From: Leucothrix arctica
GTDB lineage: Bacteria; Pseudomonadota; Gammaproteobacteria; Thiotrichales; Thiotrichaceae
Reading direction: 5' to 3'
DNA: 64,000 nucleotides
Assembly (NCBI RefSeq): GCF_003172895.1
Contig: NZ_QGKL01000044.1
Location: 1-64,000 of the forward strand
Shown here in pieces: positions 8,846 through 42,423 of this stretch. The stretch's first letter is position 1. The number at the start of each line of letters is the position of its first letter. A model generated the notes under the pieces. That model saw only the letters and a list, made by a program, of their open reading frames with translations. It was not told the origin of the DNA and searched no databases. A program made the translations under genes and the position numbers.

Positions 8846-8922
8846 TGGCGGAGCGGACGGGATTCGAACCCGCGACCCCCTGCGTGACAGGCAGGTATTC
8901 TAACCAGCTGAACTACCGCTCC
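8846..8922 (-). tRNA. tRNA-Asp(GUC), third copy
   Basis: A 77-base cloverleaf with encoded CCA. The acceptor stem is GGAGCGG/CCGCTCC and the anticodon loop CUGUCAC gives GUC. Identical by eye to the other two tRNA-Asp copies in this cluster. One base separates it from the upstream tRNA-Val. Confidence 0.96.
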
Positions 8923-8923
8923 G

Positions 8924-8999
8924 TGGTGGGTGATAAGAGACTTGAACTCCTGACATCTGCCTTGTAAGGGCAGCGCTCTACCAACTGAGCTAATCACCC
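8924..8999 (-). tRNA. tRNA-Val(UAC), third copy
   Basis: A 76-base cloverleaf with encoded CCA, acceptor GGGTGAT/ATCACCC, and anticodon loop CUUACAA giving UAC. It is transcribed immediately before a tRNA-Asp copy and matches the other two Val copies by eye. Confidence 0.96.
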
Positions 9000-9039
9000 G
9001 ATGTCGTACTACTTTTAAAACTACTTCAAACTTCAGAAT

Positions 9040-9068
9040 AAAAAGAGGACGTTAATAACATCCTCTTT
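9040..9068 (-). terminator. Terminator between tRNA pair 2 and pair 3
   Basis: AAAGAGGACGTT (9042-9053) faces AACATCCTCTTT (9057-9068) with one mismatch and a 3-base loop, followed on the minus strand by a short T run. It comes just after the second tRNA-Asp, so pair 3 either is read by leakage or has its own promoter, which I could not identify. Confidence 0.7.
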
Positions 9069-9076
9069 CTAAATAC

Positions 9077-9153
9077 TGGCGGAGCGGACGGGATTCGAAC
9101 CCGCGACCCCCTGCGTGACAGGCAGGTATTCTAACCAGCTGAACTACCGCTCC
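9077..9153 (-). tRNA. tRNA-Asp(GUC), second copy
   Basis: Same 77-base sequence as the copy at 8846-8922, with encoded CCA and anticodon GUC. It lies one base after its partner tRNA-Val and is followed by a terminator-like hairpin. Confidence 0.96.
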
Positions 9154-9154
9154 G

Positions 9155-9230
9155 TGGTGGGTGATAAGAGACTTGAACTCCTGACATCTGCCTTGTAAGG
9201 GCAGCGCTCTACCAACTGAGCTAATCACCC
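9155..9230 (-). tRNA. tRNA-Val(UAC), second copy
   Basis: Same 76-base sequence as the third Val copy, anticodon UAC, encoded CCA. A candidate promoter lies just upstream at 9248-9277. Confidence 0.96.
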
Positions 9231-9247
9231 GCTTCGTTGAAGTCGGC

Positions 9248-9277
9248 GTATTATGCCTTCTTTTTTTTCTACTGCAA
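9248..9277 (-). promoter_or_regulatory. Candidate sigma-70 promoter for the second tRNA-Val/Asp pair
   Basis: On the minus strand TTGCAG (9277-9272) and TAATAC (9253-9248) are separated by 18 bases, followed by GC-rich bases (GCCG) before the tRNA. The -35 is imperfect, so this is only a candidate, but it would let pair 2 be read independently of hupB. Confidence 0.4.
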
Positions 9278-9300
9278 GCTTTTTCTTGATTTAATTTTTG

Positions 9301-9377
9301 TGGCGGAGCGGACGGGATTCGAACCCGCGACCCCCTGCGTGACAGGCAGGTATTCTAACCAGCTGAACTACCGCTCC
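9301..9377 (-). tRNA. tRNA-Asp(GUC), first copy
   Basis: 77 bases with encoded CCA and anticodon GUC. Here the spacer to its partner tRNA-Val is 11 bases rather than the single base seen in the other two pairs. Confidence 0.96.
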
Positions 9378-9388
9378 TGAACAAAAAT

Positions 9389-9464
9389 TGGTGGGTGATA
9401 AGAGACTTGAACTCCTGACATCTGCCTTGTAAGGGCAGCGCTCTACCAACTGAGCTAATCACCC
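9389..9464 (-). tRNA. tRNA-Val(UAC), first copy
   Basis: 76 bases with encoded CCA and anticodon UAC. It begins 16 bases after the hupB stop, so it is probably co-transcribed with hupB, the arrangement seen in Pseudomonas. Confidence 0.96.
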
Positions 9465-16153: not shown

Positions 16154-16240
<87 letters not shown>

Positions 16241-16282
16241 TTAACTAGCAACCACATCCTGCCCTTTGGGCTAGGAGCGGGG

Positions 16283-16288
16283 ATTATA
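16283..16288 (-). promoter_or_regulatory. Candidate -10 box for the second tRNA-Leu (and tig)
   Basis: A perfect TATAAT on the minus strand is followed by a GC-rich discriminator (CCCCGC), placed about 43 bases before the tRNA-Leu copy at 16154-16240. No good -35 hexamer is visible at 17 bases. It suggests the duplicated tRNA carries its own stable-RNA-type promoter. Confidence 0.4.
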
Positions 16289-16421
16289 CACGTCATTTAA
16301 TGATATGTGTATATCCACTTTAAAGATATTTAAATAAAATTACGTATGGACGCTAAGAAGCTGTAAAAGTATGTAAATATTTTTTTAAAAATCACTCTGA
16401 ACAGAGTAAGTATAAGTCAAA

Positions 16422-16508
<87 letters not shown>

Positions 16509-18247: not shown

Positions 18248-18262
18248 AATATTTCAGGCATA

Positions 18263-18295
18263 AAAAAAGGCCACTCATATGAGCGGCCTTTTTTA
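18263..18295. terminator. Bidirectional terminator between tgt and the repeat protein gene
   Basis: GGCCACTC faces GAGCGGCC with one mismatch around an ATAT loop, flanked by seven A on the left and six T on the right. It serves both convergent genes. Confidence 0.88.
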
Positions 18296-18314: not shown

Positions 18315-19706
18315 TTACATGATACCCATCTTTTCTAACATCTGAATAGTCAAACCACCTGTTGGTAGGTCATTATCCTTCTGATACTTCTCAACTGATA
18401 ACAATGTACCACGACCGATACTTCCATCGATTGGGCCATCATAGAAACCAGAATCTTTAAGAACCTGCTGAATTTTCTTATTTGTATCACGCGTCATGTT
18501 TGTTTCACATAGAACACGCTGCCACTCAAGACGCTCACTAGACTTCTTCACACGAGTAAGCACTGAATCATAAGCCGCAGGAATTACAGTAGTACGCTCT
18601 TCTGCTTCTGTAGAAACATTCTTAACTTGAACAGTCTGGTAAACTGCAGGAAGCTTTTCTTCCATAATAGTAGCTGGCGCTTCAACAACCTGCTTCTTAA
18701 CAGTTTTGAATTCTGCAGGAACGGCTTGCAAACAAATAGTGTTACCTGTCGCCTTACCTTCACCAGAAACTTCTGCGTTTCTCCAAATAAATGCTGCATC
18801 AGCTATTTTATTCGTTACTTTAACCGTACTGAACTCAGCTGGAACCGTAGCACGCTCTGCTGCAGAGTCACTTACTAGGCGACTAACAGGAACAACCATA
18901 GACTCAGCGGGTACTTCAATCTCTTCCACTGTTGAAGCAGACTTAAGTACTGTTTTCTTAACAGTCTTGTACTTAGCAGGGATTTGAACTAGACACATGA
19001 TATCGCCAGTCGCGTTATCAATACGTGTAATTGGACCCGTACCTTTCTTCCATACTGCCTTAGCAGGCTCGATCATTACCTGCTCTTCAACAACTTCGTA
19101 CTCAGCTTTAACCAGTACTTTTTCTTTAGCAGAAGCTTTAACCATTACAGTCTCTTCAGCTTGCTCATACTGAGCATCTGCGATACTGATTAATTCTGCT
19201 TCTTCCTTAACTAATACTTCTTTTTCAGTCGTTTCAAACTTAGCTGGAACGTAGAACTCACTGAAACACTGTTCTGGCTGCGCTGCAGTCAGATCAACAC
19301 CATTAGTTGTAGCCGCTGCCAAAAGAGCAGGACTTGCAGGAATACCACGACGATCTAGACGCGTTACCCACTCAGTTCTTGCTGGAGCAACTTCTACTTC
19401 TTCAGAAACAGTACGATAAACCGCAGGAACAGCAACTAACTTAGTTGAAGCTTCCTTAACTAATACTTCTTTTTCTTGCACATCGTATGTAGCAGGAATG
19501 ATTTCTACCGTATTAGTCTCAGGCTTCACCAAAACTTGCTCAGTTACGTCGTCAAATATTGCAGGTACGATAACTTTTGAATAACACTCACCAGGCTTTG
19601 CGTCAGGTAATGTGTCAGTTGCATCAACTCGATCACCGTCGGCTGCAAAAGAAACTGGTATAAGCAAAGAAAGAATAGCGGCTGAGGCATAACTCTTGTT
19701 CAGCAT
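18315..19706 (-). CDS. Secreted repeat protein with C-terminal peptidoglycan-binding domain
   Basis: 463 residues. A Sec signal peptide (about 1-21, ending VSFAA) is followed by four related units and a PG_binding_1-like domain (about 405-463, IQQVLKDSGFYDGPIDGS and LLSVEKYQKDNDLP). Each unit begins with Cys (41, 147, 238, 325) and ends with Trp (113, 219, 308, 395), 70-72 residues apart; a fifth Cys is at 400. Inside each unit a PAxF/Y-type motif recurs every 23 residues exactly: 48/71/94, 154/177/200, 243/266/289 and 330/353/376. The alternating Val/Lys/Glu pattern between motifs suggests stacked beta-strands. I do not recognise a family for the repeat. The C-terminal domain implies cell-wall attachment; the rest is inference. 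Confidence 0.8.
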   Translation of the reverse strand: MLNKSYASAAILSLLIPVSFAADGDRVDATDTLPDAKPGECYSKVIVPAIFDDVTEQVLVKPETNTVEIIPATYDVQEKEVLVKEASTKLVAVPAVYRTVSEEVEVAPARTEWVTRLDRRGIPASPALLAAATTNGVDLTAAQPEQCFSEFYVPAKFETTEKEVLVKEEAELISIADAQYEQAEETVMVKASAKEKVLVKAEYEVVEEQVMIEPAKAVWKKGTGPITRIDNATGDIMCLVQIPAKYKTVKKTVLKSASTVEEIEVPAESMVVPVSRLVSDSAAERATVPAEFSTVKVTNKIADAAFIWRNAEVSGEGKATGNTICLQAVPAEFKTVKKQVVEAPATIMEEKLPAVYQTVQVKNVSTEAEERTTVIPAAYDSVLTRVKKSSERLEWQRVLCETNMTRDTNKKIQQVLKDSGFYDGPIDGSIGRGTLLSVEKYQKDNDLPTGGLTIQMLEKMGIM

Positions 19707-21652: not shown

Positions 21653-21729
21653 GCGCTGGTAGCTCAGTTGGATAGAGTATCTGGCTACGAACCAGAGGGT
21701 CGGGAGTTCGAATCTTCCCCAGCGCGCCA
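21653..21729 (+). tRNA. tRNA-Arg(ACG), first copy
   Basis: A 77-base cloverleaf with encoded CCA, acceptor GCGCTGG/CCAGCGC, and anticodon loop CUACGAA giving ACG. The wobble A is expected to become inosine by TadA, reading CGU, CGC and CGA. Confidence 0.95.
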
Positions 21730-21834
21730 TTCCAATATCTCTTTTTATTTCCTTAAATAGTTAAACTTCTGATCTTTATCAGCAAGTTATTTATGGTTTT
21801 ATGAAAGTTAAGTTGTATCGTTTAAAATGAAAGT

Positions 21835-21911
21835 GCGCTGGTAGCTCAGTTGGATAGAGTATCTGGCTACGAACCAGAGGGTCGGGAGTTCGAATCTTCC
21901 CCAGCGCGCCA
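21835..21911 (+). tRNA. tRNA-Arg(ACG), second copy
   Basis: Identical by eye to the copy at 21653-21729 over all 77 bases. The 105-base spacer between them is unrelated to the sequence before the first copy, so the duplicated unit is close to the tRNA itself. Confidence 0.95.
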
Positions 21912-40037: not shown

Positions 40038-41453
40038 ATGATCGCAATCATAATCACAGCAGTACAGCTTTTAGGGCTAGTAATGGCCGTTTATGCTTTA
40101 TTAGCCACTCGTACCTCTCAAGGGACTGTGGCTTGGGTAGTAACTTTGATTGCCTTCCCTTGGTTAGGTATTCCTGCTTACCTTATTTTCGGCAGAACTC
40201 GCTACAAAGGATATGTATCCTCTCGTGCAGAAGGTGAACAAGGTGCGAGAAAAAAACTAGACTCTGTTAAATACAAAATAAGTGGGTATTTTGCGCCGAG
40301 ACCTCAACAAAATGAGTCGCTCAGAGCCTTTGAAGTATTGGCAAAACTGCCTTTTACAGAAGCAAATCACATCAAGCTTTTAATTAATGGCCAAGTCACT
40401 TTTGATGATATTTTCACCGGTATACAACAGGCAAAAGATTACATACTGATCCAATTTTATATCATAAAAGATGACTCACTCGGTGAGTTATTATCGCAAC
40501 ATCTACAAGATGCTTTAGCGCGAGGTGTTAGGGTTTTTTTACTTTATGATGAAATTGGAAGCTATCAGCTCGATGAGAACTACTTAGATAAGTTGACCGA
40601 TAAAGGGGCACAGGTACACTCTTTCCATTCTCATAGAAGCTTTCAAAATAGATTTCAACTGAACTTCAGAAACCATCGAAAAGTGATTGTCATTGATGGT
40701 AAACATAGCTGGATTGGTGGTCACAATGTCGGTGATGAATATATTCAGAAAGACCCTAAATCCCCTTACTGGCGTGATACTCATATAAAACTGAGCGGTC
40801 CTGTCGTTATGGGAGCGCAACACTCTTTTATTGAAGATTGGTTATGGGTCACAGAGCAATTACCGGACCTTAACTGGACACCCTGCGTTCCTGACACGAA
40901 AAATTATCAACGCGCGGTGATACTACCGTCTGGGCCATCGGATCCTTTTGAAACAGCCAGTCTTATGATGCAACATTCCATCCATATAGCGAAGCAACGT
41001 ATCTGGATAGCTAGCCCCTACTTTGTGCCTGATGAAGGCGTACAACAAGCACTAAGATTGGCCGCGCTGCGGGGTGTTGATGTTCGAATATTAATTCCTG
41101 AGAAACCTGATAACTTACTCATTTACCTATCCGCTTTTGCTTTCTTACCCGGCATATTAAAAGCGGGCGTAAAAATCATGCGCTACAAGAAAGGCTTTCT
41201 ACACCAAAAAGTATTTTTAATAGATTCTTACTTATCTGCAGTTGGAACGGCTAATATGGACAACCGCTCTTTCCGTTTAAACTTTGAGATCACGGCATTA
41301 ATAGATGACGTATACTTTGCAAGTCAAGTCGAAGCGATGCTACTTGAAGACTTTAACAACGCAGGCGCAATAACTATTGAGGAAATAAAAGCAAAGCCGC
41401 TTTGGTTTACTATTTTATGCCGCGCCGCTTACCTGTCAGCGCCAGTCCAATAA
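40038..41453 (+). CDS. cls: Cardiolipin synthase (phospholipase D type)
   Basis: Condenses phosphatidylglycerol molecules to cardiolipin at the inner membrane. The protein of about 471 residues has two N-terminal membrane helices (IIITAVQLLGLVMAVYALLA and AWVVTLIAFPWLGIPAYLIF) and two HKD motifs: HRKVIVIDGKHSWIGGHN and HQKVFLIDSYLSAVGTANMD. I start it at the ATG at 40038, which has AAGGA 6-7 bases upstream and gives the normal short N-terminus; the frame is open to a TTG at 39954 with no ribosome site. The gene is divergent from zwf. Confidence 0.92.
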   Translation: MIAIIITAVQLLGLVMAVYALLATRTSQGTVAWVVTLIAFPWLGIPAYLIFGRTRYKGYVSSRAEGEQGARKKLDSVKYKISGYFAPRPQQNESLRAFEVLAKLPFTEANHIKLLINGQVTFDDIFTGIQQAKDYILIQFYIIKDDSLGELLSQHLQDALARGVRVFLLYDEIGSYQLDENYLDKLTDKGAQVHSFHSHRSFQNRFQLNFRNHRKVIVIDGKHSWIGGHNVGDEYIQKDPKSPYWRDTHIKLSGPVVMGAQHSFIEDWLWVTEQLPDLNWTPCVPDTKNYQRAVILPSGPSDPFETASLMMQHSIHIAKQRIWIASPYFVPDEGVQQALRLAALRGVDVRILIPEKPDNLLIYLSAFAFLPGILKAGVKIMRYKKGFLHQKVFLIDSYLSAVGTANMDNRSFRLNFEITALIDDVYFASQVEAMLLEDFNNAGAITIEEIKAKPLWFTILCRAAYLSAPVQ

Positions 41454-41471
41454 CACTTATAAAGTGTTATT
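41449..41471. terminator. Palindrome holding both stop codons of cls and the patatin gene
   Basis: AATAACACTT and AAAGTGTTATT form an inverted repeat with a loop of a few bases. The TAA of cls (41451-41453) and the TAA of the minus-strand patatin gene (41467-41469) both lie inside it, so one hairpin can end both transcripts. It is AT-rich and therefore weak. Confidence 0.55.
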
Positions 41472-42423
41472 CACCAATCGCATAACGAATTTTATCCATC
41501 TGTTGCATTGTCAAATCATAACCACTTTTTATCACTTCTTCCGCGCGATGAAACTCCATTAAACCAATATGAGATAAGCGTGGTGAGATTAATACATCGG
41601 GTGGATCACCCGCCATACGGCTACGTGCGATTCGATCCTGCATAATATTGACAGAACTTGCAATCGTATCAAAAAAGCTTGGTTGCTTTGGAGCATCGGA
41701 TTGCTGCTTATTGGGGAAAAATGATGAGGAGTATTCTTTCAGCGTCCCTGTCAGCAAACCGAACATATCGTCAGACTTACTATCGGCTTCAACCAACTCT
41801 ACCTTGCTCACCTCTTCTCCAACCTCCTTCTCTGTCTCGCCCTTGACTTTTTTACGACTACGCTTACCCACAATATCACTATTTAGTCCGACCGCTATAA
41901 CCACTTCAGCCCCCAAAGATCGACACATACTGACGGGGATAGGGTTAACAAGACCACCATCCACAAGCCAGCTTCCATTATGACTAACGGAAGGAAAAAC
42001 ACCAGGCACTGCAATTGACGCCCAAAGCGCCGTTAGTGCATCGCCCTCTGTAAACCAAACTTCACGACCAGTCGTTAGGTCAGTAGCTACCGCTCCAAAT
42101 GGCTTATCAAATGACTCTATTAGCGTACCCTTAGGGCAGATATTCAAAGCAAAGTCATCGTTCAATCGGCTAGTGTTAATAAAGCCTGACCCTACTCCCA
42201 ATCCTGCATATTTCGCTAAATCCATACGATTAAGTGACCTAATCCATTTTTCTAACGCGTCTAAGTTAGAGGATGTATAAGCTGCTCCCACGATTGCACC
42301 AATAGAGCAACCACTGACAACACTCACTTCTATGCCATGCTCTTCTAGCGCTCGAATGACACCAATATGTGCCCAACCTCGTGCTGCACCACTTCCCAAA
42401 GCTAAACCAATTTTTACTGACAT
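41467..42423 (-). CDS. Patatin-like phospholipase (RssA/NTE type)
   Basis: 318 residues with the complete Ser-Asp dyad: nucleophile S40 in VSGCSIGAIVGAAY and D155 in WLVDGGLVNPIPV. The oxyanion loop GLALGSGAARGWAHIGV is at the N-terminus. Residues 185-240 form a charged insertion (RSRKKVKGETEKEVGEE) not present in short RssA proteins. No signal peptide is visible. Family members release fatty acids from phospholipids, which fits its place tail to tail with cardiolipin synthase, though a functional link is only inference. Confidence 0.87.
   Translation of the reverse strand: MSVKIGLALGSGAARGWAHIGVIRALEEHGIEVSVVSGCSIGAIVGAAYTSSNLDALEKWIRSLNRMDLAKYAGLGVGSGFINTSRLNDDFALNICPKGTLIESFDKPFGAVATDLTTGREVWFTEGDALTALWASIAVPGVFPSVSHNGSWLVDGGLVNPIPVSMCRSLGAEVVIAVGLNSDIVGKRSRKKVKGETEKEVGEEVSKVELVEADSKSDDMFGLLTGTLKEYSSSFFPNKQQSDAPKQPSFFDTIASSVNIMQDRIARSRMAGDPPDVLISPRLSHIGLMEFHRAEEVIKSGYDLTMQQMDKIRYAIGE

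Follow-up and report, generated by a model that had tools for sequence, protein, structure and literature searches.

We propose that a secreted repeat protein encoded in the window (the whole 64,000-nucleotide stretch of DNA analysed in this study) is a wall-bound antiparallel hairpin rod. The probability of this reading as a whole, topology and function together, is put at roughly 0.6. The hairpin topology of the repeat arms is highly probable on the strength of antiparallel covariation between them, and the functional part of the reading is tentative.

Gene, product and genomic context

The gene and its parts, in window coordinates, are as follows.

18315-19706, minus strand: whole gene, an open reading frame (ORF) of 463 amino acids
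19713-19717, minus strand: AGGAG, likely ribosome-binding site, 5 bases before the ATG, read by eye
19644-19706, minus strand: signal peptide, residues 1-21, cleavage site placed by eye
19368-19586, minus strand: arm 1, residues 41-113 (C41 to W113), three repeats, antiparallel with arm 4 by covariation
19269-19367, minus strand: linker 1-2, residues 114-146, with one predicted helix at 126-134 in the low-confidence model
19050-19268, minus strand: arm 2, residues 147-219 (C147 to W219), three repeats, antiparallel with arm 3 by covariation
18996-19049, minus strand: proposed tip loop, residues 220-237, lying between W219 and C238, from invariant positions
18783-18995, minus strand: arm 3, residues 238-308 (C238 to W308), three repeats, from the repeat parse and covariation
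18735-18782, minus strand: linker 3-4, residues 309-324, proposed side of an internal loop opposite linker 1-2
18522-18734, minus strand: arm 4, residues 325-395 (C325 to W395), three repeats, from the repeat parse and covariation
18507-18509, minus strand: C400, the last Cys and proposed base partner of C41 (presumed pairing)
18327-18479, minus strand: PG_binding_1 domain, residues 410-460, from Pfam
18262-18294: palindrome flanked by A and T runs, in the stretch separating the gene from the convergent tgt, read by eye as a likely two-way terminator

The automatic terminator scan returned no terminator-like site at the palindrome. The protein has no Cys before C41 and therefore no lipobox. 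The gene is flanked by the convergent tgt on one side and by tRNA-Leu, secG, and an ORF taken by eye as tpiA on the other. Neighbour-gene clustering across 140 family loci gave no cluster present in more than 17 of the 140, which is a weak test because the flanks were mostly 1.5 kb or shorter and some loci had almost none. An ORF read by eye as an AmpD-like amidase lies upstream on the same strand at loci L017, L041, L043, L045, and L048. Elsewhere in the window, a tRNA-Asp(gtc)/tRNA-Val(tac) pair occurs three times in tandem at 8846-9464, and duplicated tRNA genes were seen for tRNA-Leu(tag) at 16154-16506 and tRNA-Arg(acg) at 21653-21911.

Repeat register of the window protein

A sequence-only reading of this locus had described 12 sub-repeats of 23 residues in four Cys-to-Trp units, followed by a PG_binding_1-like domain. 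The repeat claim was confirmed. The protein contains four units of 3 × 23 residues, and when residues 38-402 were autocorrelated with BLOSUM62, lag 23 came out highest (z 8.6 relative to 300 shuffles), followed by lags 106 (z 6.1), 87 (z 5.1), and 46 (z 4.5). The distances from the unit Cys (41, 147, 238, and 325) to the unit-closing Trp (113, 219, 308, and 395) are 72, 72, 70, and 70 residues, as the reading had stated, and these four are the only Trp residues of the protein. The opening Cys stands seven residues before the first Pro in units 1 and 2 and five before it in units 3 and 4. A PAxF/Y-like motif was said to recur at all 12 register positions; PAxF/Y is strict at nine of them and degenerate at 177 (DAQY), 200 (KAEY), and 266 (PAES). 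A fifth Cys, C400, five residues after W395, was absent from the reading. The PG_binding_1 domain does follow the repeats, at residues 410-460 (30.1 bits; cut-off, 23).

For alignment, non-overlapping units were taken, since overlapping two-unit rows were unsuited to it. Eight orthologues (window included) contributed 32 units, all of which aligned without gaps inside the repeats. The 12 sub-repeats of the window protein share on average 42% DNA identity (maximum, 59%) and 27% protein identity (maximum, 48%). The DNA copies have diverged, as had been claimed, and the array is therefore old. An old, selected, beta-rich, and probably elongated repeat is supported, with Cys and Trp invariant in a diverse 10-row alignment.

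Distribution of the family and register in homologues

The 23-residue spacing is retained in homologues, where its loss had been named as a sign against the repeat. Lag 23 was the best of lags 12-40 in 53 of 61 non-redundant homologues. In the same 61, the distance from the start Cys to a later Trp of its unit was 23n+3 or 23n+1 in 137 of 188 cases, the former corresponding to a Cys seven residues before the first Pro and the latter to one five before; a further 26 distances fell in one other residue class (12), which represents an internal Trp.

With the window protein as the query, 25 of 39 sampled relatives matched at E ≤ 1e-3 (window's genome counted). In profile searches, matches were obtained at 1e-15 in 58 of the 63 genomes from the order (window's genome counted), at 1e-3 in 122 of 369 from the class, many of them through the PG-binding domain alone, and at 1e-12 in 17 of 398 from the phylum, including at least one (G344) matched only through that domain. 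Nine of 289 genomes matched at 1e-6 in the class of member G398. The G398 group is taken to be alphaproteobacterial because it lies in the same phylum but a different class and because its query matched Methylobacterium. The seven named relatives belong to Leucothrix, other Thiotrichaceae, or close marine lineages. Among plasmids and phages, the window protein query found no match, matches of a two-arm query were confined to its PG-binding end, and the alphaproteobacterial query matched one Methylobacterium bullatum record. No family match was found in the viral contigs searched. Similar repeats may occur in Bacteroidota as well.

A lipobox-like motif was found by pattern search in 47 of 109 members. 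Many members carry PG_binding_1; L076, L078, L079, and their kin lack it. The genome of the window contains a paralogue (L002 1066-2763; G000:C25, about 40801-42060) with a lipobox-like start (by eye), two arms with Cys-to-Trp distances of 73 and 70, a long Q/R-rich stretch, and PG_binding_1. Two members, L128 324-1817 (G003) and L129 822-2261 (G008), have eight repeats per arm and, by eye, no terminal PG-binding domain. A TGA-interrupted relative (L060, G207:C1) was found at two places of one contig with identical scores. Family genes are adjacent in pairs in genomes G938 and G836 (L143/L150/L155 and L145/L151).

Matched arm lengths

The 197 profile hits were reduced to 141 ORFs (window included) by identity of the last 150 residues and to 109 at 80% identity; among the 141 are a few that are weak or contain only the PG-binding domain (e.g., L080). 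A repeat profile trained on the sequences that it parsed resolved the 141 ORFs into two-arm and four-arm proteins. The window protein is 3/3/3/3, each arm bounded by Cys and Trp. Among the 109 ORFs, 76 were anchored with equal arms, one was anchored with unequal arms, and 32 were not cleanly anchored; this is a tally of ORFs and not of independent changes on a tree, and the equality is in part due to shared descent. The 76 equal-arm ORFs comprised 41 of type 4/4, 28 of 3/3/3/3, three of 3/3, two of 2/2, and two of 6/6. The sole unequal ORF was L079 (10/6). Of the 32 not cleanly anchored, 14 carry one inserted residue in arm 1 and have equal arms when counted by hand (12 are 3/3 and two are 4/4), two parse as 8/8, L148 is 2/2 by eye, and the remaining 15 are partial, degenerate, or mis-parsed. 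The cleanest single case came from five aligned alphaproteobacterial members, two of which lack exactly 23 columns from both arms. L079 (1165-2487) has near-identical repeats, a recent expansion, and adjoins L092 (2318-3088; 4/4) in one genome.

Covariation between arms

Mutual information with average-product correction was calculated between arms and summed over five-diagonal bands. The rows were 52 two-arm 4/4 ORFs and 45 four-arm ORFs from the 141, with small effective numbers of about 20-40. In the two-arm set, an antiparallel band at position-sum 83 scored 8.81, a value reached by none of 2000 column permutations (null maximum, 2.38 ± 0.46), and the best parallel band scored 2.94 (279 of 2000). 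With 20 letters, the two-arm score was 10.72, compared with a highest value of 4.91 when rows were re-paired at random 60 times. The single-diagonal peak lay at sums 82-85. Ten random splits placed the peak at 82-84 in all 20 halves, and 18 of the top 40 pairs fell within 3 of sum 83 (2.8 expected).

In four-arm proteins, the pairings 2:3 and 1:4 had been expected beforehand from linker and arm types, although this expectation was unrecorded. Both gave antiparallel bands reached by none of 2000 permutations (2:3, 5.82 at sum 59; 1:4, 4.50 at sum 60; 45 ORFs). The antiparallel control scores were 2.30 for 1:2 (705 of 2000), 1.67 for 3:4 (1678), 1.85 for 1:3 (1435), and 2.90 for 2:4 (177). The registers of the two sets agree (84 = 61 + 23). 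The charge covariance had its minimum at sum 84 in the two-arm set, at 61 for 2:3, and at 62 for 1:4; the minimum for 1:2 was not there. In the window protein alone, which is itself one of the 45 four-arm rows so that its charge test overlaps that set, the charge product of arms 2:3, compared over 41 registers, was lowest at i+j = 458 (eight opposite pairs, one like), and that of arms 1:4 was lowest at 439, tied with 440 (five opposite, none like). The charge product of 1:2 and 3:4 was positive at the matching register.

Several results run against this pattern. Parallel in-register bands were seen for arms 3:4 (3.46; 34 of 2000) and 1:3 (3.36; 47 of 2000). With a three-letter charge alphabet, 1:4 had no antiparallel band (1.80; null mean, 2.18), the parallel score of 2:3 (4.73) exceeded the antiparallel score (4.08), and 3:4 had an antiparallel score of 3.17 at sum 59, just over the re-paired maximum of 2.95. 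With 20 letters, 1:2 peaked at sum 61 (3.34), within the null (maximum, 3.60). The non-pairing arms of the window protein also had similar charge lows at other registers (1:2, -6 at 268; 3:4, -5 at 646). Shared descent, or gene conversion between arms, would be expected to produce parallel homologous registers rather than an antiparallel one.

Structure prediction and database matches

The AlphaFold2 model of the full-length window protein had a pLDDT of 60.0 and a pTM of 0.27, with alternating strands of about 9-12 and 6-7 residues. A single unit gave a pLDDT of 51.9, a pTM of 0.12, and no secondary structure, weak evidence given its shallow alignment. Because these models are of low confidence, the proposed fold rests on covariation. 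A profile match of the unit to a known domain had been named as a finding that would refute the sequence-only reading; in Pfam and NCBIfam, no curated family covered the repeats of the window protein and ten relatives, and only the PG-binding domain scored above the cut-off. Pfam likewise placed no model over the repeats of a set of five members, two of which are among those ten relatives. The PHROGs families that matched the repeats are of unknown function and the matches are weak: phrog_25009 with window protein residues 153-223 (E 0.0022), phrog_20647 (1.6e-5) and phrog_22491 (0.0061) with L079, and phrog_30100 (0.0014) with L076. PHROGs endolysin families matched at or around the PG-binding domain, of which phrog_1493 (L063, 215-371) runs into the second arm. 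Sequence matches in the PDB to At1g79260 fatty-acid-binding-like chains (E 0.055), an aminotransferase (E 0.3), and designed Ig chains (E 0.67) were taken as chance. A Foldseek search with the full model gave 143 matches, none of them at E ≤ 1e-3. The arm matches inspected had an rmsd above 30, and the SleB N-domain (6tci) superposed on PG_binding_1 with an rmsd of 1.0 (E 0.19 for the whole model).

Proposed architecture

The window protein would be a secreted, periplasmic rod anchored to peptidoglycan. The four arms would form one long two-stranded antiparallel beta hairpin, with arms 1 and 4 as stem 1 and arms 2 and 3 as stem 2; the stems would be separated by an internal loop made of linkers 1-2 and 3-4, and the tip would be the conserved segment between W219 and C238. 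Repeat position k would face about 15-k (mod 23) on the other strand, so that the Pro-Ala steps at 0-1 and 14-15 would lie opposite each other, dividing the ribbon into short and long segments. The same register would place each unit Cys close to the partner arm's Trp, and this would account for the Cys/Trp ladder seen in the sequence-only reading. At the base, C41 and C400 would lie opposite each other to within about two residues. PG_binding_1 comes directly after the arms and, given the nature of this domain, would fix that end of the rod to the wall. Lipobox-bearing relatives would additionally be tied to a membrane, probably the outer membrane, and the tip loop would be presented at a distance set by repeat number. 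Since PG_binding_1 sits at the base, and the membrane anchor of lipobox members would join the same end through a spacer, we favour a wall-held boom or spacer with a partner-meeting tip over an adhesin.

A rod reaching outward from the wall had been suggested previously. The relatives are Leucothrix and its kin, which are Gram-negative, so the protein should reside in the periplasm and the outward reach is not upheld. A fully extended strand spans approximately 0.33 nm per residue. A fully extended stem of 72 residues would thus measure about 24 nm, approximately the whole periplasm, and the ribbon may therefore be coiled or flat.

The cysteines bear on the base and the tip. C400 is invariant in the 10-row alignment, and the W219-L239 stretch holds nine of the 53 invariant positions of that alignment. 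Among 65 two-run ORFs, a count made without redundancy filtering and in which the exceptional cases cluster in related genomes, 53 carry both the first and the last Cys, and five lack the tip Cys with the first and last Cys kept. Eight were scored as lacking the last Cys. Five of these eight carry an additional Cys immediately ahead of the first, and in the other three the Cys may be offset rather than absent. This pattern, as far as sequence can indicate, fits a base staple between C41 and C400 better than intermolecular cross-links, and a C41-C400 disulfide is probably present at the base. L020-L022 and their kin (L168-L189) have an extra Cys just after the arm 1 Trp, which would close the tip loop together with the tip Cys.

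Alternative arrangements

The sequence-only reading treated each Cys-to-Trp unit as an element of its own, an idea that is not supported in that form because covariation pairs each arm with another arm. Four autonomous beta domains, in a row like beads on a string and perhaps cross-linked through Cys, would suit the exact unit boundaries at Cys and Trp and the alignment of all 32 units. Such a chain of domains is nevertheless quite unlikely, as the antiparallel covariation extends across the whole arm length and repeat numbers match between arms; the lone unit was also not predicted to fold, although this evidence is weak. Covariation is blind to whether contacts lie within or between molecules; the same antiparallel pairing could therefore join two molecules in a swapped or zipped dimer or a fibre, giving a cross-linked network, and for the tip Cys of most two-arm members no partner is obvious. 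Against this, the short inter-arm linker permits a simple hairpin, and nested 1:4 and 2:3 pairing would be expected of one chain folding back on itself. We consider pairing between molecules unlikely.

A beta-solenoid, in which each 23-residue repeat forms one coil stacked within its arm, is very unlikely. The short and long strands within 23 residues suit such a coil, and within-arm covariation peaks at separation 23, although repeat homology alone can produce such a peak; the strongest signal, however, is antiparallel between arms. Were the coil two-start and antiparallel, the two-arm set should show further peaks at sums 61 or 107, but the scores there were 0.7 and 1.0 (20 letters). The low AlphaFold2 confidence in mid-unit stretches would be compatible with a largely disordered, low-complexity spacer, but the register is exact across classes, Cys and Trp are invariant, and the antiparallel covariation is position-resolved, which leaves disorder with almost no credence.

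Comparison with known systems

The hairpin rod would share features with several known systems. Proteins with PG_binding_1 (PF01471), such as the SleB N-domain, SltB3, and CtpB, resemble the window protein in the sequence and fold of the C-terminal domain; the window protein differs in having no enzyme domain, and its repeat arms match none of them. Residues 379-462, starting slightly upstream of the PG-binding domain, scored 35.8 bits against the His-Xaa-Ser repeat protein HxsA (TIGR03979), far under the equivalog cut-off of 121.65, and the window protein has no His-Xaa-Ser repeats. SasG is reported to be an extended beta-rich repeat rod attached at the cell wall (PMC4458895), and on that description the G5-E surface rods of SasG and Aap, like other wall-anchored repeat rods, resemble the proposed rod in both respects. 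Here, in contrast, the repeats are of 23 residues with diverged DNA and would form two length-matched pairing arrays in a Gram-negative periplasm; Pfam, searched to E 1 with the window protein and ten relatives, gave no G5 family.

Lpp and Pal are tethers between the outer membrane and peptidoglycan. The likeness of the family to them lies in the lipobox-like motif in 47 of 109 members and PG_binding_1 in many, and L054 matched the Lpp/OprI alanine-zipper model weakly (18.4 bits; cut-off, 43). The window protein differs in having no lipobox (its first Cys is residue 41), PG_binding_1 as its wall domain, and a repeat rod with no counterpart in Lpp or Pal.

Elongated wall-bound repeat proteins are already known as a kind, and the architecture proposed here may be a new class. 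The chances are about even that the family is a widespread, uncatalogued envelope component of Proteobacteria and represents a new class among repeat proteins: an extensible double-stranded antiparallel beta rod built from the length-matched arrays of one chain, whose nested stems, internal loop, tip loop, and coordinated changes of repeat number on the two strands would make it the protein equivalent of an RNA stem-loop. In the titles and abstract openings of the literature searched, no description of the family or of length-matched nested repeat arms was found. If the topology is true, it would provide a fold and a candidate partner-finding tip for a family unnamed in the searched profile libraries except for its PG-binding domain. 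It would also raise the testable question of how repeat gains and losses are coordinated between two distant arrays. The repeat number of both arms would then set the rod length and act as a built-in periplasmic ruler; the number of repeats per arm varies by lineage and is 2, 3, 4, 6, or 8.
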